A stretch of 24,542 nucleotides of DNA from a virus: IMG/VR virus record IMGVR_UViG_3300009194_000046, positions 1 through 24,542 of that record; one strand, written 5' to 3'. Positions within the stretch are counted from its first letter, which is position 1, and every line of letters starts with the position of its first letter. The notes below the pieces were generated by a model. That model saw only the letters and a program-made list of their open reading frames with translations. It did not search any database and was not told the DNA's origin. Of the stretch, positions 6,345-24,542 are shown piece after piece. Both the position numbers and the translations under genes were made by a program.

Positions 6345-6380
6345 AATGGCGGACTCATCGCCACGTTACGGAGCAAGGGA

Positions 6381-7610
6381 ATGATCCGAGTCCGCCGAGC
6401 CGTCGCCGTCACTCTGGGCGCCGTCGCCCTGTTCGCCGGTGCCGCCCACGCCGAGCCGCTATTTGAAGTGGATGAGCGCCTGGTGGACATTGAGGTGAGG
6501 CAGCAGGCTGAAAGTTACGTCGGTCGCGTCGCCTCAGGGCAGGCCCAGCAGGTGGCTGCAGAGGTCTGCCAGGGCGATGTGAGCAACAATTTCGGTCGCG
6601 GCTATACTCGCCAGCGATGCATGAGCCTCGCAAGTGAGACGTTCTCTGAAATGGTCAGTGAGTATGAGACGAGGCAGTCTCAGCAGCGAAGAGCGGCAGA
6701 GGAGAGGGCTGAAAAGAGAGCGGCCGAACGAGCTGAGCTTGAGGCTGAGTACGAGCGCAGACAGCAGGAGATCGCCGAGGCACGTCGTGAGGCGAAAGAG
6801 CAAGCGATCTCTGCATGGGAGGGCGCTCCCCCTTTGACTGATCGTCAGGCGCGCTTCATCGACGATGTTTTCGGCGGCGTCTACTCCCAGTCGGACCAAT
6901 ATGTTGCCGGCGTCGGCTCAGTGTCTCAGTCAATGCTCCGGCTAGGCGTAGAGCAAGGCCGGCTCCACATGGCCTTCGCTAATCGTTCGCTGAATCCTGT
7001 CGTCGAATCAGTCGACAAGGAGAACCGATCATTCAACTTCCGCATTGGCGGCGGACGCCTGGCCACCATGCAGAGGTCGGCCAATATGGCGGTGCTGACA
7101 GGGTATGATGGCACCCAGTATCTCTATTTCGTGCGCCGCCTTGCTGGGGAGGATCGAGAAAGAATCGGGATGCAGCGCCAGACGGCGGCCGTGGAGCAGT
7201 CCCCATCGCCTCAGCAAGCCCAGCTTGTCGACGCAATCCTGACTCGTGACCAGGTTAGGCAGATCGCTGCCATGATGCTTGATGCCTATCAGGATGGCGG
7301 GGTGGGGGAGATGCGACGCACCGAGCAGCAGTGCTGGCAGGACCTGGCCGCCGCTACCGGCGACGCCGAGGTGATTGCGGCAGCGTGTGGTCTCGCGGCC
7401 TTGGCGGGGTCGACCATCGAGACCGGAAGCGCTGAAGGTGCAGAGCGTCAGCCGGCCCAAGAGTACCAAGGCGCCGCTACCATTGAGCGCATAGAGGGGC
7501 ACATGGCCGACAGCCAGTTCAGCCAAGCCTCCATCGAGCGCATGAAGTCGGAAACCCTGAGCCCGCATATGCAGACCGTAGCCAATGCTCTAGGCAATGC
7601 GGCTCGCTAA
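6381..7610 (+). CDS. Secreted coiled-coil protein of unknown function (moron-like)
   Basis: A 409-residue protein from ATG 6381. A textbook Sec signal peptide occupies residues 1-24 (basic MIRVRR, hydrophobic core, AHA cleavage site). The mature part has Cys63 and Cys80, then a long Glu/Arg/Ala coiled coil (about 96-142). A mixed domain follows with NRSFNFRIGGGRLATM and YLYFVRRLAG, then a C-terminal helical region with a further Cys pair (EQQCWQDL ... AAACGLAAL). No family is recognised. Base composition and codon choice look less GC-rich than the neighbours, and the gene separates terminase from head genes. A -10-like TAGAAT lies at 6342-6347 without a good -35. These traits suggest a horizontally acquired moron expressed on its own, exported to the host periplasm. 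Confidence 0.7.
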   Translation: MIRVRRAVAVTLGAVALFAGAAHAEPLFEVDERLVDIEVRQQAESYVGRVASGQAQQVAAEVCQGDVSNNFGRGYTRQRCMSLASETFSEMVSEYETRQSQQRRAAEERAEKRAAERAELEAEYERRQQEIAEARREAKEQAISAWEGAPPLTDRQARFIDDVFGGVYSQSDQYVAGVGSVSQSMLRLGVEQGRLHMAFANRSLNPVVESVDKENRSFNFRIGGGRLATMQRSANMAVLTGYDGTQYLYFVRRLAGEDRERIGMQRQTAAVEQSPSPQQAQLVDAILTRDQVRQIAAMMLDAYQDGGVGEMRRTEQQCWQDLAAATGDAEVIAAACGLAALAGSTIETGSAEGAERQPAQEYQGAATIERIEGHMADSQFSQASIERMKSETLSPHMQTVANALGNAAR

Positions 7611-7642
7611 CCTCGGAAAACCCCGCGCCACCCTCTGACCTG

Positions 7643-7689
7643 CCTCCCGCATCATGCCCCCATGGGAAACAACCGTGAGGGGCATGACC
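7643..7689 (+). promoter_or_regulatory. Leader with inverted repeat before the head operon (copy A)
   Basis: TCATGCCCC at 7652-7660 is perfectly complementary to GGGGCATGA at 7679-7687, with an 18-nt loop. The second arm includes the GGGG that serves as ribosome-binding sequence for ATG 7690. Upstream, 7643-7664 matches 17 of 22 positions with 24170-24191 before another gene head. The element could be an RNA hairpin that limits translation, or part of a late promoter region. Confidence 0.5.
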
Positions 7690-8517
7690 ATGCAGCAACC
7701 TCCGCTGATCAAGTACAACCTGAAGGAGCGCGGCCGCCAGCATCGCGGCGTCGAGCGCCACTTCGACATTCCGGCCATCGTGGCCAGCATCAACAGCCCG
7801 GCCACGCAGGAGCGCGTGAAGACCCGGGGCATGCTGGGCTACTTCGGTCACTGGCCCCGGGTGCGCTTCGGCATGGAGCCGCTCGAAGGTGGGATCGCCG
7901 ACGGCACGCCGCAAGCCGTCGAGCCGGCGGTGGTGACCACGCACCTGAAGGCCTATGACGACGGCACCGTCGAGCACCAGACCGAATTCCTGGATACCGC
8001 CACCGGGCAGATGGCGTCGCGCATGTACGCCAACCGGGTGGGCGGCTTCTCGACCGCCATCGATCCGCGCAAGCCCGAGCTCTACGGCTTCGACTGGGTC
8101 AATGACCCCAACTACTCGACCAACCGCGGCTACGACCTGGTGCTGGACAGCGTGACCAGCGGCGAGATGACCTTCGACGACGTGGTCTCCGCCGAGCACG
8201 CCGAGCAGATGGCGGCGATGAACCGGCTGTTCGAGATGATGGAGGCCAATCTGCGCCTGGCCATGGACTCCGCGGCCCGCTTCGAGCAGGAGAACGGCGA
8301 CCTGCTGGACCTGCTGAGCAAGCAGGACGAGGCCAGCAAGCAGGCCGGGGCGCTAGTCACCGACAGCGCCGCAGCAGCTGATGCAGTCCGGCAGGTCGAC
8401 CGCGACCGCCGCTACTTCCTGGACAGCGCGCTGCCCAGCTTCCAGAACCCGGAAGCCAAGGAGGAGAACGACCGCGACTATCTGCGCTTGAAGCGCCGGA
8501 TGTTCCATCATGTTTGA
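7690..8517 (+). CDS. Putative prohead protease with scaffold-like C-terminal part
   Basis: A 275-residue protein read from ATG 7690. The in-frame ATG at 7684 lies too close to the GGGG ribosome site. Residues 80-125 carry the prohead protease pattern: VTTHLKAYDDGTVEHQTEFLDT with His96, then RVGGFSTAI with Ser121. These match the His-Ser catalytic set of phage assembly proteases in the herpes-protease-like clan. After about residue 165 the protein is helical and charged (EQMAAMNRLFEMMEANLRL, then RFEQENGDLLDLLSKQDEA), as expected of a scaffold segment fused to the protease. It should shape the prohead and then cleave internal proteins. It heads the structural operon. Assignment is by motif only; other head proteins with similar layout are possible. 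Confidence 0.6.
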   Translation: MQQPPLIKYNLKERGRQHRGVERHFDIPAIVASINSPATQERVKTRGMLGYFGHWPRVRFGMEPLEGGIADGTPQAVEPAVVTTHLKAYDDGTVEHQTEFLDTATGQMASRMYANRVGGFSTAIDPRKPELYGFDWVNDPNYSTNRGYDLVLDSVTSGEMTFDDVVSAEHAEQMAAMNRLFEMMEANLRLAMDSAARFEQENGDLLDLLSKQDEASKQAGALVTDSAAAADAVRQVDRDRRYFLDSALPSFQNPEAKEENDRDYLRLKRRMFHHV

Positions 8518-11663: not shown

Positions 11664-11686
11664 GCCGGCCGTGAGCTGGCTTTTTT
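11664..11686 (+). terminator. Intrinsic terminator before the capsid gene
   Basis: GCCGGC at 11664-11669 pairs with GCTGGC at 11675-11680 (one G-U pair) around a 5-nt loop, and is followed by six T at 11681-11686. A preceding GACGC-TT-GCGTC inverted repeat adds further structure. It lies 27 bp after the stop of the upstream gene. The remaining 115 bp up to the capsid start hold no clear promoter motif. Partial termination here could set the ratio of capsid to upstream proteins. Confidence 0.6.
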
Positions 11687-11801
11687 GCGCCCATACCCGG
11701 AAAAACGCCCGAAACCGGCGCGCGGCACGCCCTCAGACTCGACTCATCCGGCCACCCCGGTCGGCCTTGCAACTACCCGTTGTCGAGCAAAGGAGAGAGG
11801 C

Positions 11802-13478
11802 ATGCCTCACCAGTACCAAAGCCGCGAGACCGCCGAGGTCGCCGAGTTCATCGATGGCCTGAAGCAGGAGTCGGTCAAGGGCGGCGTCTTCGATTCGGCG
11901 GCTGCCGACGATTTCCTGTCCAATGCCATCAACCAGGCCGCCGGCGTGAAAGTGCCGGAATCGCTCCAGGTCGCCCTGGACGAGGCCGACGAGAAGACCG
12001 CCAGCATGATGACGCGGGCCATTCTCGACGGCGTGTCTGCCTATGAGCAGGCACACGGCGCGTCGTGCCCGGCGGACATCATGCAGCAGGCCATGCACCT
12101 GGCCTACGCCACCACCAATGATGCTCGCCGGCAGATGGGCATGCAGCTGGACTCCGCGACCAGCGGTGCCCACGACGTGCACTCCCTTCAGCCCAACCGG
12201 GCCGTGGTCGCCATCCTGGCCACGCTGACCGAAGCCATCCCGTTCGCTCACTACCTGCCGGCGGACATCAAGTCCAACGAGGCCAAGCTGGCCATCATGA
12301 CCCACCAGGCCGGGAAGGATTACGGCAGCTATGGGGCGGGCGACCTCATGGACGGCGGCAACAGCGGCGACGCCTACATCACGTCCGGCCGCGAGCACAT
12401 GTGCACCATCGAGATGGATGCCGGCAGCCCGACCGGCAACATCACCGGCAAGATCACCGCCGTGCAAGCCACGCCGGAGACCTGCGACCCGGCGGCGGCT
12501 ACCGTCAAGCTGATGCGCGGCCGCTCTCTGGTCTACCTCGACGGCATGATCGTCGGCAAGGAGGTCAGCGCCTCCGGTACCGGTACCTCCGCGATCAGCG
12601 GCCAGGTCGTCGTCGACGGCACGACCCACCAGATCGGCGGCACCATCAACCCCGACAACGGCGACATCGCGCTGACCGCCAACCCGGCGCTGCCCGAGTC
12701 CGCCAACGTGCTGGTCGAGGCCTTCATCGACTACGAGCGGGCCCCGGAGCTGACCCCGGAGATCATCACCGCGGTCGAGACCTTCCCGCTGTTCGCCAAG
12801 CCGTGGCGCGTGACCACCACCCAGACCATCGACAGCCGTACTCAGATGGCCAACGAGCTGGGCCTGGACCCGTACAGCGAGGGCGTGCTCGGCATCCAGT
12901 CGCAGTTCGCCAACGAGCGCCACTACGAGGTGCTGCGCAAGGCCCGCCGCCTGGCGTCCCGCAACCAGGAGAGCTTCGACTTCGCCTGGGCCACACAGGG
13001 CGACTACAAGTCACGCTCCGACGTGTGGCGCGACTTCAACGCCGTCGTGGGCACCGTCAGCCAGCGCATGGCGCTGACCACCATGAACCACGGCGTCACC
13101 CACCTGTACGTGGGCGAGCAGGTCGGCGCGCAGATGCAAGGCCTGCCGTCCGACATCTGGGAGCCGTCCGGCGTGGTCGAGCGCCCCGGCATCTTCCGTC
13201 TGGGCCGCCTGTTCGGTCGCTATGACGTCTACTACAGCCCGAAGGTGGTCCTCGAGACCGAGAACAGCGCCGAGGTGCTGTGCGTGGGCCGCGCCACCGA
13301 CGTGACCCGCAACCCGTTCGTGCTGGGCGACGCCGTACCGCCGACCGTGGTTCCGCTGGCCACCAACGCTGACCTGAAGTCCGGCGCCGGTTTCTACGCG
13401 CGCAACTTCACCAGCGTGAACCCGCACCAGCCCAGCTCCACCGGCTGCGCGCTGATCAACGTCACCAACCTGTTCTAA
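11802..13478 (+). CDS. Major capsid protein
   Basis: A 558-residue protein from ATG 11802, preceded by AAAGGAGAGAGG, the strongest ribosome site in the window. Residues 1-125 are helical, acidic and polar (VAEFIDGLKQESVKGG, LQVALDEADEKTASMMTR), like the removable delta domain of large capsid proteins. The body is β-rich with an inserted domain (about 205-310: GSPTGNITGKITAV and later GTTHQIGGTINPD). The HK97-like C-terminal part includes RPGIFRLGRLFGRYDVYYSPK and SGAGFYARNFTSVNP, then SSTGCALINVTNLF. Such ends are typical of major capsid proteins of myovirus type. Very high expression signals and position right before tail genes agree. The N-terminal domain may be cut by the prohead protease encoded at 7690. 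Confidence 0.78.
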   Translation: MPHQYQSRETAEVAEFIDGLKQESVKGGVFDSAAADDFLSNAINQAAGVKVPESLQVALDEADEKTASMMTRAILDGVSAYEQAHGASCPADIMQQAMHLAYATTNDARRQMGMQLDSATSGAHDVHSLQPNRAVVAILATLTEAIPFAHYLPADIKSNEAKLAIMTHQAGKDYGSYGAGDLMDGGNSGDAYITSGREHMCTIEMDAGSPTGNITGKITAVQATPETCDPAAATVKLMRGRSLVYLDGMIVGKEVSASGTGTSAISGQVVVDGTTHQIGGTINPDNGDIALTANPALPESANVLVEAFIDYERAPELTPEIITAVETFPLFAKPWRVTTTQTIDSRTQMANELGLDPYSEGVLGIQSQFANERHYEVLRKARRLASRNQESFDFAWATQGDYKSRSDVWRDFNAVVGTVSQRMALTTMNHGVTHLYVGEQVGAQMQGLPSDIWEPSGVVERPGIFRLGRLFGRYDVYYSPKVVLETENSAEVLCVGRATDVTRNPFVLGDAVPPTVVPLATNADLKSGAGFYARNFTSVNPHQPSSTGCALINVTNLF

Positions 13479-14043: not shown

Positions 14044-15696
14044 ATGAGCGTGTCATTCGTTCGACAGCTCGGGGCCGAATCGGGGGTTCAGCTGAACCCC
14101 CTGGTCGACAACTCCGAGATCCCGACCACGGGAAATGAAGACCAGATCTTCGCCATCGCCATGCGCGCCACCCGTGGGCGTATCGATCGTGCCTTCAAGG
14201 TCAATCGCGGCACCGTTCGCCAGCGACTGGGGCACGGTGAGGCGATGCGCGACAACGAGCTCAACGAGGCCTATGTCCACGTCCGCGAGGCGCTGGACAA
14301 TGGCGCCTATGAGGCCGTGGTGAGTCGCCTGCACTCCGAGACCGCCAAGCTGAGCTGGATCGTGGTCAAGGAGGAGGTCACCGGCGAACCCGCTGAGCCT
14401 ACCGGCGCCTTCACCTTCGAGGTGTCCGAAACCGAGCCCTCGACCGACTTCCTGTTCGCGGTCAAGCACCTGGAGTGCTTCAACGACGGCGTCATGGTCG
14501 AGTTCCGTGCCGACGAGAAGCGTGAGGGCGGGGTCAACGTCGCCAACGACGTGATCAGCCTGCGTCTGCTGGAGCCCAACGGCGAGAAGCTGATCGAGGT
14601 CACGGGGTCGCTCGACCGCAACGCCGTGGATGACAACGGCAACTCCTATTACCTGCCGACCGTCATCGAGGCTCGCACCGACCGCATGGAGGTCATCACC
14701 GGCGCGGCGACCACTGTCGCCACCGATTCCGATGCCTATGGCTATGACGCCATGTATCGCGAGAAGTGGGCGACCTCCGCGGTGATGAGCTACTTCGACG
14801 AGGGTGGCACCGCCTACACCGTCGACGACTACGTGCGCGCCCGTGAACAGCTGTACGGCACCCAGCAGGGCTATGCCTACATCGCCTCCGGGGGCAGCGA
14901 GGCCCCGGGGCTGATCGCCGAGCTGGCCAGCCTGTCCTTCGACACCAATCGCCAGCTGCGCGTCGACGTGCCCGGCAACCTGGACGTCGAGGGCGCCATC
15001 GCCTTCGTCGAGCAGCTCAATATGGGCAGCATGGCCGAGGCCCACCTGCTGCACGTCTTCTGGGCGCCGCTGAAGGCCATGGACCCGACCGGCATCAACG
15101 GCAAGCGGCACTTCGGTACCGCCACCCTCAACGTCGCGATGGCGTGCGGCCGCAACGCGCGCGTCAACGCCAAGGGGTTTGCGCCCAAGAACTACCCCAT
15201 CGCGGGGCGCGAATGGCCGGTGAGCCGCCAGGGGATCGTCCAGACCTACACGCCGAACAACCAGGAGCTCAACGCCCTGGCGCGGGCGAAGATCAACCCG
15301 GTGATCTACGAGAACTACTCCGGGGGTGGCCGCTACGTGTTCCGCGACTCGCTGACCAGCGCTCTGGTGGACTCCAGCCTGAAGAAGCTGATCGCCGTCG
15401 CCGACATGTCGACGTCCATCGACGACGCCGTCACTCGTTTCGGCAAGGACATCCTTCAGCTGCCGATGACGGTGGCTATCAAGAAGATGCGCGACTTCCT
15501 GACCACGCACTTCGAGGCGGCTCAGGCGTCCGGCTGGCTGGTGCCGTCCGACGATCCGTCCATGAACGGTGCGGCCTGGCGCTTCGAGGTGCAGCCCAAC
15601 GAGCAGCGGCCGTATGAGCTCATGGATGTGCGCTACTGGCTGCGCTACGACGGCACCACCCGCCAGATCCACGTAACCCAGACGCTGAGCCGCTAA
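14044..15696 (+). CDS. Tail sheath protein
   Basis: A 550-residue protein from ATG 14044. The start reads SVSFVRQLGAESGVQL, then IFAIAMRATRGRIDRAFKVN and NELNEAYVHVREALDNGAYE, the layout seen at the N-terminus of contractile sheaths. The middle (about 105-260) is a variable β-rich insert. The C-terminal domain includes INPVIYENYSGGGRYVFRD, LKKLIAVADMSTSIDDAVTR, and MKKMRDFL-like helices (IKKMRDFLTTHFEAAQASGW). It closes with strands (MDVRYWLRYDGTTRQIHVTQ). These features and the length of 550 fit a sheath, which polymerises around the tube and contracts on infection. The match is by pattern, so a different large tail protein is not excluded. Confidence 0.7.
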   Translation: MSVSFVRQLGAESGVQLNPLVDNSEIPTTGNEDQIFAIAMRATRGRIDRAFKVNRGTVRQRLGHGEAMRDNELNEAYVHVREALDNGAYEAVVSRLHSETAKLSWIVVKEEVTGEPAEPTGAFTFEVSETEPSTDFLFAVKHLECFNDGVMVEFRADEKREGGVNVANDVISLRLLEPNGEKLIEVTGSLDRNAVDDNGNSYYLPTVIEARTDRMEVITGAATTVATDSDAYGYDAMYREKWATSAVMSYFDEGGTAYTVDDYVRAREQLYGTQQGYAYIASGGSEAPGLIAELASLSFDTNRQLRVDVPGNLDVEGAIAFVEQLNMGSMAEAHLLHVFWAPLKAMDPTGINGKRHFGTATLNVAMACGRNARVNAKGFAPKNYPIAGREWPVSRQGIVQTYTPNNQELNALARAKINPVIYENYSGGGRYVFRDSLTSALVDSSLKKLIAVADMSTSIDDAVTRFGKDILQLPMTVAIKKMRDFLTTHFEAAQASGWLVPSDDPSMNGAAWRFEVQPNEQRPYELMDVRYWLRYDGTTRQIHVTQTLSR

Positions 15697-17281: not shown

Positions 17282-18039
17282 TGATCCACTTTCCCGTGTT
17301 GCGCACGCGGCGCCTGACCGTGCGCATGAAGGAGCTGGCGATGATCGACGCCATCGCTCTGGCGGCTATTCCGCCGCACCTCAACGAGGAGGCCGCCACG
17401 GCCTTCCTTCGCGCCGCCGTTGATGAGGCCCAAGGGGTGGCGAACCCCGAGGACTGGACGGTGCAGGAGCGCACCATGGCCATCTGCCACTACATGGCGT
17501 CGACGCTGGACGATGGCCCCGACTTCAGCCTGGCCGGCGGACAAGCCAACTTCTCCGACTATCTGATGGGCGAGCAGGATTATCCCGGCGATCGCGTCGA
17601 GGTCGGCCGCATCGAAGGCGACAGTTGGGAGGCGCGACACCTGACCGGCGCCCTGGCCGGTGCCATCGAGCGACTGCAAGGCGAGCTGCCAGGCATCGAC
17701 GGCGCCGCGCATTGGCGTGTCGGGCGCATGGCGGCCCAGCTGATCCCCAATGGCCAGGCGGTGCCCGCCGAGGGCGATGTGGATGCCGCCCTGCTGGAGC
17801 GCATGCGGGTCATCGCCCAGTACCCGGAGAGCGTCTTCGTGCAGCTGTTGGGGGCGTTCGAGACCGCCTGCCGCCAGTTGGATCACCTGTTCCTGATGGA
17901 TGCGGACGAGCACGGCCTCATGGCCCTGCCTCGGGAGGATAGCGCGGCTGCAAAGCCGCCGGCGCGATTTCCAGCTGGCACCTGCATCACCGAGCTCGCG
18001 CGACACCTGGGCGGAAAACCAGCGCCTGCTGGCCCATAG
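17281..18039 (+). CDS. Tail assembly chaperone-like protein (zero-frame product)
   Basis: A 252-residue protein from ATG 17281, overlapping the preceding stop. N-terminal residues 1-65 read MIHFPVLRTRRLTVRMKELA, then helices LNEEAATAFLRAAVDEA and VQERTMAICHYMAS. The core (66-140) has FSLAGGQANFSDYLMG, then RVEVGRIEGDSWEARHLTGALAGAIERLQ. This motif group is found in phage tail assembly chaperones and T4 gp26-like hub proteins. The end of the frame (SAAAKPPARFPAGTCI and beyond) looks non-globular. A second frame continues the coding signal to 18253, typical of chaperone genes that use recoding. Chaperones of this kind protect the tape measure during tube assembly. Confidence 0.6.
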   Translation: MIHFPVLRTRRLTVRMKELAMIDAIALAAIPPHLNEEAATAFLRAAVDEAQGVANPEDWTVQERTMAICHYMASTLDDGPDFSLAGGQANFSDYLMGEQDYPGDRVEVGRIEGDSWEARHLTGALAGAIERLQGELPGIDGAAHWRVGRMAAQLIPNGQAVPAEGDVDAALLERMRVIAQYPESVFVQLLGAFETACRQLDHLFLMDADEHGLMALPREDSAAAKPPARFPAGTCITELARHLGGKPAPAGP

Positions 18040-18253
18040 CCTGACCCTATATTCGTCGACATCGCTACCCGACGCGCTGCGCATGACTCACAGCGAGGCC
18101 GAGGCCTTCTTCGAGGGCAAGGCGTATGCCGAGTGGCGCAAGGGCAAGGAGCAGGAACTGAAGCTACAGGCAGCGGTGAACGACCGACTCAACGGCGTCA
18201 TTCGAGCCTGTGGGGCAATCGTGAAAACGGTGGCATCGCTGGGGCGTCGGTAG
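17897..18253 (+). CDS. Frame-shifted extension of the tail chaperone gene (probable +1 or -2 recoding)
   Basis: This frame is open from 17897 (after a TGA at 17894) to TAG 18253 and overlaps the end of the zero frame by about 140 bp. From about 17990 it reads like real protein: DTWAENQRLLAHSLTLYSS, then ALRMTHSEAEAFFEGKAYAEW and a basic helical end. The only ATG in the likely coding part (18083) has no ribosome site, and the ATG at 17900 gives an implausible basic start. A shift from the upstream frame is therefore the simpler explanation. A TTT-C after a CGA codon at 17965-17971 is a plausible +1 slip site. The fusion would be about 323 residues. An indel in the source genome would look the same. 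Confidence 0.5.
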   Translation, partial: WMRTSTASWPCLGRIARLQSRRRDFQLAPASPSSRDTWAENQRLLAHSLTLYSSTSLPDALRMTHSEAEAFFEGKAYAEWRKGKEQELKLQAAVNDRLNGVIRACGAIVKTVASLGRR

Positions 18254-20312: not shown

Positions 20313-20508
20313 CACCATCTTCGTGCAGGAGCCGCTTCCGGTACCGGATCGCCCGGCGCTGCCCAAGGTGCCGGCCGATGACATGCGTTGCCTGCCGGAC
20401 GACGCCTACGAGGCGCTGGCCACGCGCGACGCCGAACTGCAAGGGCATGTGGGGCGCCTCGAGGCCATCCTGCGCACCACTCATCGCCAGGAAAAACGCG
20501 CCCCCTAG
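20233..20508 (+). CDS. Outer-membrane lipoprotein spanin (Rz1-like)
   Basis: A 91-residue protein from ATG 20233, preceded by GGGAG, starting inside the i-spanin gene in a different frame (80-bp overlap). A lipoprotein signal peptide (MLSRFATRLAMVAVTILPMA) ends in a lipobox-like MAGC with Cys22. The mature part is Pro-rich (EPLPVPDRPALPKVPADD), then has a short helix (HVGRLEAILRT). Partial overlap of a Pro-rich lipoprotein with an i-spanin gene is diagnostic of Rz/Rz1 pairs. It would sit in the outer membrane and bind the i-spanin through the periplasm. Confidence 0.85.
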   Translation: MLSRFATRLAMVAVTILPMAGCETTPDTIFVQEPLPVPDRPALPKVPADDMRCLPDDAYEALATRDAELQGHVGRLEAILRTTHRQEKRAP

Positions 20509-20533
20509 CCCCGCGGGGCGGCGATAGGCTGAC

Positions 20534-20591
20534 ACTTCCAGGCCATGCACGTCATGGCCACCTCAAACCTGTCCAACCACGGGGCCATGCC
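20534..20591 (+). promoter_or_regulatory. Leader with alternative hairpins before the tail tube gene (copy B)
   Basis: GGCCATG at 20541-20547 pairs with CATGGCC at 20553-20559 over a 5-nt loop. The same CATGGCC can pair with GGCCATG at 20583-20589, which includes part of the GGGG ribosome site before ATG 20592. The element shares GGGGCCATGCCATGA with the leader at 24223. Just upstream, 20508-20519 (GCCCCGCGGGGC) is a short palindrome without a T-run. Confidence 0.45.
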
Positions 20592-21092
20592 ATGACCGTC
20601 TCCAATGCCTCTTACCTGAAGGGCTTCTACGACCAGACCAAGGCTATGGGTCAGAAGGTCGTGAACTCCGACTTCACCTTCGAGATCGAGGGCTTCGAGC
20701 AGAACTATCTGCTGGCTCGCCAGTGCCCGTGGCCGGATGTGGCCGTGCAGGGCGAGATCGAGGTGCCGTCGCCGCTGGGCACCGCTCTGTTCGAGCCGCA
20801 GCAGATCCGCACCAACCACCAGGGCCAGGTCACCTTCATGGAGACGGTGGCCGGCACCATCGACCAGATGCTGGTCGACATCATCACCAACGGCGGCACC
20901 TTCAACGCCAAGATCTACGAGGGCACGCCCGAGCGCTACCTGCGCTACAAGCGCATCACCGACGCCTTCATCCAGATCGACGACCCGGATCGCGACTGGG
21001 AGAACCGCAGCCAGGTACTGACCTTCAGCGGCACCATGTTCTTCCACTACTTCGGCGAGATCGTGGAAGGCAACAGCTCGGATTATCGCTGA
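20592..21092 (+). CDS. Putative tail tube protein
   Basis: A 166-residue protein from ATG 20592. It reads SNASYLKGFYDQTKAMGQKV, then FTFEIEGFEQNYLLARQCPW, EIEVPSPLGTALFEPQQIRT, and FMETVAGTIDQMLVDIITNGG. It ends with DRDWENRSQVLTFSGTMFFH. Size (T4 gp19 is about 163 residues) and alternating β-strands with one central helix fit a contractile-tail tube protomer. Being first gene of the unit that follows with hub and spike genes fits this too. The tube lies in a separate unit from the sheath, with the lysis genes in between. Identification is moderate; a baseplate protein with the same fold is the alternative. Confidence 0.55.
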   Translation: MTVSNASYLKGFYDQTKAMGQKVVNSDFTFEIEGFEQNYLLARQCPWPDVAVQGEIEVPSPLGTALFEPQQIRTNHQGQVTFMETVAGTIDQMLVDIITNGGTFNAKIYEGTPERYLRYKRITDAFIQIDDPDRDWENRSQVLTFSGTMFFHYFGEIVEGNSSDYR

Positions 21093-24125: not shown

Positions 24126-24160
24126 GAGCCCCGCGCGGCCAGGAAAAGCCGACCGGGCTC
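24126..24160 (+). terminator. Possible terminator hairpin after the PAAR gene
   Basis: GAGCCC at 24126-24131 and GGGCTC at 24155-24160 form an outer stem, with an inner GGC/GCC pair around AGGAAAA. A weak pyrimidine tract (24162-24175, CCCCTTTCTCTCCC) follows instead of a clean T-run. It lies just after the stop of the PAAR gene. Confidence 0.4.
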
Positions 24161-24169
24161 GCCCCTTTC

Positions 24170-24233
24170 TCTCCCATAGCATGGCCCCATGACGCGCCCG
24201 TGTGGCGCCATCCCGCAACCAAGGGGCCATGCC
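24170..24233 (+). promoter_or_regulatory. Leader with inverted repeat before the last gene (copy C)
   Basis: GCATGGCCCC at 24179-24188 is perfectly complementary to GGGGCCATGC at 24223-24232, with a 34-nt loop. The second arm carries the GGGG ribosome-binding sequence of ATG 24234. It resembles the leaders at 7643 and 20534. The first arm, with the CTCCC that precedes it, is the best-conserved part between this copy and the one at 7643. Confidence 0.5.
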
Positions 24234-24542
24234 ATGACTGGAACTTCACCGCCCGTTCTCTGGAACGACAGTAGCGCCATGCCGGTGGGCATGTCGCTGG
24301 GTCAACTGCTGTACCGCATTCGCCGGCCTCGCCCTGACGAAGACGACGGCCTGATCTTCGATAGCGTGACCCTCGGCGACGTGCTCGAGGAGGCCGAGGC
24401 CATCTTCGAACTCGACGCCCTGGTGGCCACCAGCTCCTCCCTGGGGCGCAAGGTGCGCAGCCTGGAGCGCGTGATGAATACCGGCGGCGGCGAGCTCAGC
24501 GTCGTGTCCTCGCAGGTCTCCAGCCCGTTCAAGCGCCAGGGC
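24234..24542 (+). CDS. Tail-module protein, 3'-truncated by the window end
   Basis: An ORF from ATG 24234 that is still open at the last base; 103 codons are seen. The product starts MTGTSPPVLWNDSSAMPVGM, then LGQLLYRIRRPRPDEDDGL and VTLGDVLEEAEAIFELDAL, and is helical with a Ser-rich end (ELSVVSSQVSSPFKRQ). It may be a tape measure or baseplate protein, since neither has appeared so far and the gene opens a new unit behind a leader element. The visible part carries no diagnostic motif, so I leave it unnamed. Confidence 0.55.
   Translation, partial: MTGTSPPVLWNDSSAMPVGMSLGQLLYRIRRPRPDEDDGLIFDSVTLGDVLEEAEAIFELDALVATSSSLGRKVRSLERVMNTGGGELSVVSSQVSSPFKRQG

Follow-up and report, generated by a model that had tools for sequence, protein, structure and literature searches.

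The window analysed here is the entire IMG/VR record of 24,542 bases, and it is a piece of the genome of a P1-like myovirus. Every late gene lies on the + strand. These genes include those for the prohead protease Pro (similar to P1 Pro; 7690..8517, +), the capsid (start at 11802), the tail sheath (start at 14044), and the tail tube (start at 20592), followed by the 5' part of a gene for a DarA-like internal head protein (24234..24542, +), which is truncated where the record ends and whose homologue, L033:4527-6437, matches phrog_1926. Near relatives are found in genomes of Halomonas salipaludis and Ectothiorhodospira; locus L070, in Halomonas salipaludis WRN001, is one prophage of the group. 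As relatives we used P1-like myoviruses and prophages, and the leaders of Pro and tail-tube homologues were taken from viral contigs and genomes; when 369 genomes were scanned for further tail-tube prophages, just one was found, and it was already known. A search of the window against Rfam gave no family match. Between the terminase gene and Pro there is a gene at 6381, the protein of which has no PHROGs match, and a 9-bp repeat, GGCGGACTC/GAGTCCGCC (6349-6396), lies on both sides of its start region.

The first-pass annotation described inverted repeats before the genes at 7690, 20592, and 24234 (copies A, B, and C). According to the comparison with relatives, all three copies are predicted late promoters. 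In the leaders of Pro and tail-tube homologues, a GGAAAA box is found about 80 nt upstream of the start codon, regardless of the gene that lies upstream. When the spacing of [CT]ANNNT after GGAAAA was recorded without requiring a -10 hexamer, the sole peak was at 28-29 nt (9 of 17 leaders). The promoter pattern, that is, GGAAAA, 28-30 nt, and a -10-like hexamer, has five matches in the window against 0.27 expected, and in copies A, B, and C the distance from GGAAAA to the sigma-70-like -10 (CATCAT, TAGGCT, and TAGCAT, respectively) is exactly 29 nt. The box, about 45 nt before the expected RNA start, would be the place of an activator, and the timing of these promoters is presumably late. The annotation also stated that no such element occurs before other gene heads, which is wrong as far as the promoter is concerned: a fourth one (GGAAAA-N29-CAGACT; 11699..11739, +) lies upstream of the capsid unit. 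We rejected the match at 18013 as a promoter, since its DNA encodes a conserved protein motif (ENxRLLAHSLTLYSS) and the ATG at 18083 has no preceding ribosome site; this leader was entered one base off in the opening-cost, arm-position, and shuffle analyses described below. Among close phages (L003-L006 and L019-L023), the sequences on the 5' side of the box are unrelated to each other and those on the 3' side are nearly identical, and the box appears to be the boundary of exchangeable cargo genes between late units.

In copy A, the box (7615..7620, +) is followed by the hexamer CATCAT (7650..7655, +), from which an RNA start at about 7662 is expected. The first arm of the inverted repeat, TCATGCCCC (7652..7660, +), begins inside this hexamer, and the second arm, GGGGCATGA (7679..7687, +), overlies GAGGGG, the ribosome site for the protease (ATG at 7690). 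The arms of this 9-bp repeat are exact, as originally described, and dinucleotide shuffles of the leader give p = 0.007. In computed folds, opening the ribosome site costs 20.9 kcal/mol in read-through RNA and 6.2 kcal/mol in late RNA. In L006, copy A is reduced by one pair and one length step. In copy C, the box (24142..24147, +) is followed by TAGCAT (24177..24182, +; expected RNA start about 24189), the first arm GCATGGCCCC (24179..24188, +), and the second arm GGGGCCATGC (24223..24232, +), which overlies the ribosome site of the DarA-like gene (ATG at 24234). The arms of this 10-bp repeat are likewise exact (p = 0.004 by dinucleotide shuffles of the leader), and the computed opening cost falls from about 17.6 to 9.4 kcal/mol, the latter being a cost that still remains in late RNA. 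Around the first arm, copies A and C do share the reported similarity, but it consists mostly of the -10 region common to both promoters.

Copy B is a different case. Its promoter (GGAAAA-N29-TAGGCT; 20490..20530, +) precedes the tail tube unit, and the two arms that had been proposed, CATGGCC (20553-20559) and GGCCATG (20583-20589), do exist, but the pairing has p = 0.083 and is not kept in relatives. The same CATGGCC pairs more tightly with another GGCCATG at 20541-20547 across a 5-nt loop. The resulting local hairpin, GGCCATG-cacgt-CATGGCC (20541..20559, +), lies downstream of the promoter, is kept in the close relatives L019-L023, and is the structure predicted in the read-through fold; in this fold the hairpin leaves the ribosome site free, and copy B is predicted not to be a ribosome-site lock. 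In the capsid leader, a weak 6-bp repeat, CTCGAC (11738-11743) / GTCGAG (11782-11787) (11738..11787, +), adjoins the ribosome site on its upstream side; it adds just 2.0 kcal/mol to the opening cost, and p = 0.908 against shuffled leaders. Another hairpin of this leader, CCGGCC...GGTCGG (11745-11775), is kept in relatives and lies within the late RNA, 5' of the ribosome site.

A scan for terminator-like sites found none in the gap before copy A or copy C, whereas the capsid unit, with its weak lock, is preceded by one; with four units, this association is anecdotal. The site is a terminator-like stem with a T run (11664-11686) directly upstream of the capsid promoter, and L192 and L196 retain a GC stem and T6 at this site. 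In some relatives, hairpins like intrinsic terminators extend over the late promoter or over its box, namely in the tail-tube leaders of L246, L287, L293, L284, L274, and L046 and in the Pro leader of L007; these hairpins are perhaps another means against read-through.

To evaluate the pairing beyond the window, we collected from the DNA of the relatives a non-redundant set (at most 70% similarity) of leaders with GGAAAA promoters, in which start codons were picked via Shine-Dalgarno matches. We scored the helices that a 12-nt window near the -10 can form with the final 28 nt of the leader up to the ATG, and compared this helix score with that of controls in which the halves were swapped between leaders, so that composition and motifs are preserved. 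We judged pairing by this swap test rather than by a formal count of covariations because MAFFT, when aligning copy C and its relatives, places the second arm wrongly. For the window from hexEnd-1 to +10 (hexEnd being the end of the -10 hexamer), the score is 13.94, as against 10.08 (sd 0.34) for swapped leaders (z = 11.3, n = 45). In the same test, windows that start at least 7 nt after the -10, or that lie at least 22 nt upstream of its end, have no excess pairing. Some phages have longer stems, which account for a weaker excess (z = 3.9) at about 10-20 nt on the upstream side of the -10 end. The excess is also found in the strict set of intergenic leaders (z = 8.1, n = 27), in held-out leaders, fetched later and unlike those of the first set (z = 3.2, p = 0.002, n = 15), and in leaders of tail-tube genes whose starts are exact (z about 4, n = 35). 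Striking single helices are those of L203 (14 bp), L136 and L032 (13 bp each), the Pro leader at L101 5519 (12 bp), and L106 (11 bp). Only 14 of the 46 leaders are individually significant, in part because some of the pattern matches are false promoters; in AT-rich phages, some matches are surely not promoters, and these dilute the signal without creating it. Arm sequences are unrelated from leader to leader, whether the promoters belong to one genome or to different phages, and the loops range from about 10 to 45 nt.

A second comparison was made within gene families. Homologues of Pro with a GGAAAA promoter have a mean helix score of 19.9 (n = 8), compared with 13.3 for those without (n = 14; p = 0.0046), and for DarA-like homologues the corresponding scores are 19.0 (n = 12) and 11.3 (n = 15; p = 0.0021). 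That is, the homologues that head a unit carry a strong repeat, and the internal ones mostly lack it. This contrast is conservative, since some of the high-scoring "internal" homologues have variant boxes. In the same contrast, tail tube and capsid homologues show no score difference linked to the promoter. Since this is so, and since copy B and the capsid leader have no strong lock, the lock is not universal.

The position of the arms is also informative. In the 14 clear cases, the first arm always covers hexEnd+4 and spans about -2 to +8 from the -10 end, that is, it sits between the -10 and the expected transcription start; the second arm has its peak 7 to 10 nt before the ATG, which is the Shine-Dalgarno position, and follows the ribosome site rather than a set distance from the promoter. 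Because a normal sigma-70 start is about 7 nt past the -10, most of the first arm would be missing from RNA initiated at the promoter. The computed costs agree with this geometry: in the lock group, the mean opening cost decreases from 13.5 kcal/mol for far-upstream 5' ends to 6.5 kcal/mol for a 5' end at +7, and is flat thereafter. Over all 46 leaders, opening costs 4.05 kcal/mol more in read-through RNA than in late RNA, and 0.99 kcal/mol more when the upstream halves are swapped.

We consider it probable, on the basis of these sequence comparisons and computed folds, that copies A and C each combine, in one element, a late promoter and a translation lock of the type known from T4 gene e. 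In T4 genes e, soc, 49, and I-TevI, RNA from upstream hides the ribosome site, and RNA from a late promoter located in the 5' arm leaves it open (PMC3014915, PMC2988022). On account of these read-through parallels and the same geometry, we class copies A and C as probable locks that would work like that of T4 e. For both copies, the folds predict a helix that hides the Shine-Dalgarno sequence or the AUG in upstream-initiated RNA, and the genes upstream are co-oriented, with no terminator between; the placement of the promoter within the 5'-arm DNA is a matter of geometry only, namely the spacing to the -10, the position of the first arm (hexEnd-2 to +8), and the cost curve. The nucleotides from within the -10 to about the expected start are complementary to the Shine-Dalgarno region of the gene itself. 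In the proposed mechanism, RNA that reads through from upstream units would contain both arms, fold, and hide the ribosome site, and RNA from the late promoter would have its 5' end at or within the first arm, be unable to form the fold, and be translated. The late unit would be insulated from read-through because only the RNA of its own promoter is open. We infer both the true transcription start and the translational repression from promoter geometry and predicted folds. The first-pass annotation counted transcripts that start downstream of the first arm as evidence against its hypothesis, but it overlooked that this arm overlaps the promoter; a start there is therefore the expected case, and is just how the switch would work.

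Several other explanations of the repeats should be considered. If transcription started upstream of the first arm, there would be a hairpin within the late mRNA, which might serve as a translational operator or as a stabiliser of the 5' end and be opened by a phage protein or a particular condition. This, the idea of the first-pass annotation, would fit the second arm, which overlies the Shine-Dalgarno sequence, and also copy B, which does have a hairpin downstream of the expected start. However, the conserved -10 puts the expected start about 7 nt on, within or past the first arm, the well-characterised T4 gene e shows the same geometry (PMC3014915), and there is no arm sequence in common that could be a common protein site; we consider this explanation unlikely. 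The variety of arms and loops also bears on the alternative that the repeat is a DNA operator, with a dimeric protein bound to both arms around the transcription start. The first arm overlaps the -10 and the start region, a typical place for a repressor, but the arms differ within one genome (GCATGGCCCC, TCATGCCCC, and CTCGAC) as well as between phages, the loop varies from about 10 to 45 nt, and the second arm tracks the ribosome site instead of the promoter distance, which together make an operator highly improbable. Given the differing arms and loops, the earlier suggestion of a site for a phage-encoded regulator finds no support, and no conserved sequence for recognition by a ligand or a protein, as in an operator or riboswitch, was found among the leaders compared.

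Alternatively, the repeats might be terminators of read-through that overlap the promoter, the block of translation being secondary. A T run does follow the second arm in some relatives (the Pro leader of L007, and L046, L246, and L284), but copies A and C and most other locks have long loops and no T run, and the scan detected no terminator at A or C; we regard this possibility as quite improbable. As for chance pairing in GC-rich leaders, the values given above for copy B and the capsid leader do not exceed chance expectation within the window, but the swap tests of the full and strict sets, the held-out leaders, and the two homologue contrasts are all against it, and chance can scarcely be the explanation. 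The translation lock remains our preferred reading. Since many relatives keep the pairing though the arm sequences differ, what is selected is the structure and not a protein-binding sequence, and the "selection on structure" and "translation switch" that had been suggested from three copies are well supported.

P1 is a related phage, with Pro and the tail tube, and its late units are likewise under activator-type promoters without a -35. As annotated in P1, its late promoters have a -22 box, AAGTNACT, 5 nt before the -10; with up to one mismatch, the window contains no match to this box, and in this respect its promoters are not of the Lpa-dependent type of P1. Lpa (PF25716) had no match in nine relatives when the P1 sequence alone was the query, and the window itself is a fragment; in phage D6, late promoters could not be located by the P1 pattern. 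In P1 itself (NC_005856), the -10 and the Shine-Dalgarno sequence of LPsit (46576-46625) are covered by an 11-bp repeat (p = 0.0005), and LPsit is the sole clear case. LP23 (58773-58830) and LPdar (lydA holin; 31183-31217) have repeats of 7 and 6 bp, respectively, joining the -10 region and the ribosome site. The eight annotated late promoters taken together give p = 0.19 in the helix swap and p = 0.048 in the opening-cost swap, so that they are weak as an independent test and only suggestive of a lock. We see about even chances for the proposition that insulation of late units is the rule among P1-like phages, including P1, with the DNA from the -10 to the start being the antisense of the gene's ribosome site. 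If it is true, the translation of each locked unit needs the unit's own promoter and is blind to read-through from the prophage or from early transcription. The proposition is testable in P1 (LPsit, LPdar, and LP23) by existing genetics. Our literature search, from the scope of which subscription journals were mostly absent, found no account of such locks in P1-like phages or of the P1 repeats.

In IS10 and IS50, fold-back inhibition acts against read-through. In IS200, an RNA structure hides the ribosome site of the transposase gene tnpA (PMC12594629). The three elements resemble the present case in that RNA structure hides the ribosome site, here of the transposase; unlike the present case, they have one such gene per element and an unrelated promoter, and late-gene control is not involved.

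T4 is one of the closest parallels. As a positive control, our method recovers the experimentally known lock of gene e with the same geometry: its arm TACCTTCTA begins within the -10 and extends to about 7 nt beyond it, as in the leaders studied here. The differences are in extent and setting. In T4, few genes are concerned, and late promoters genome-wide give z of about 2, whereas here many late units of another phage group are involved; the promoter is also different (GGAAAA-N28/30 and a sigma-70-like -10), the phages are temperate, and the genes predicted to be locked are mostly those of morphogenesis (the protease and the DarA-like protein, and in places the tail tube, capsid, and portal). 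Such a lock would help to explain how temperate phages can do without terminators between late units arranged head to tail. It would also add a constraint that promoter models ignore, namely the need for the discriminator to pair with the ribosome site. As an engineering part, a promoter together with its lock could be an expression unit immune to read-through. What in T4 is a curiosity of a handful of genes is apparently a recurring element of late-promoter design in another group of phages.
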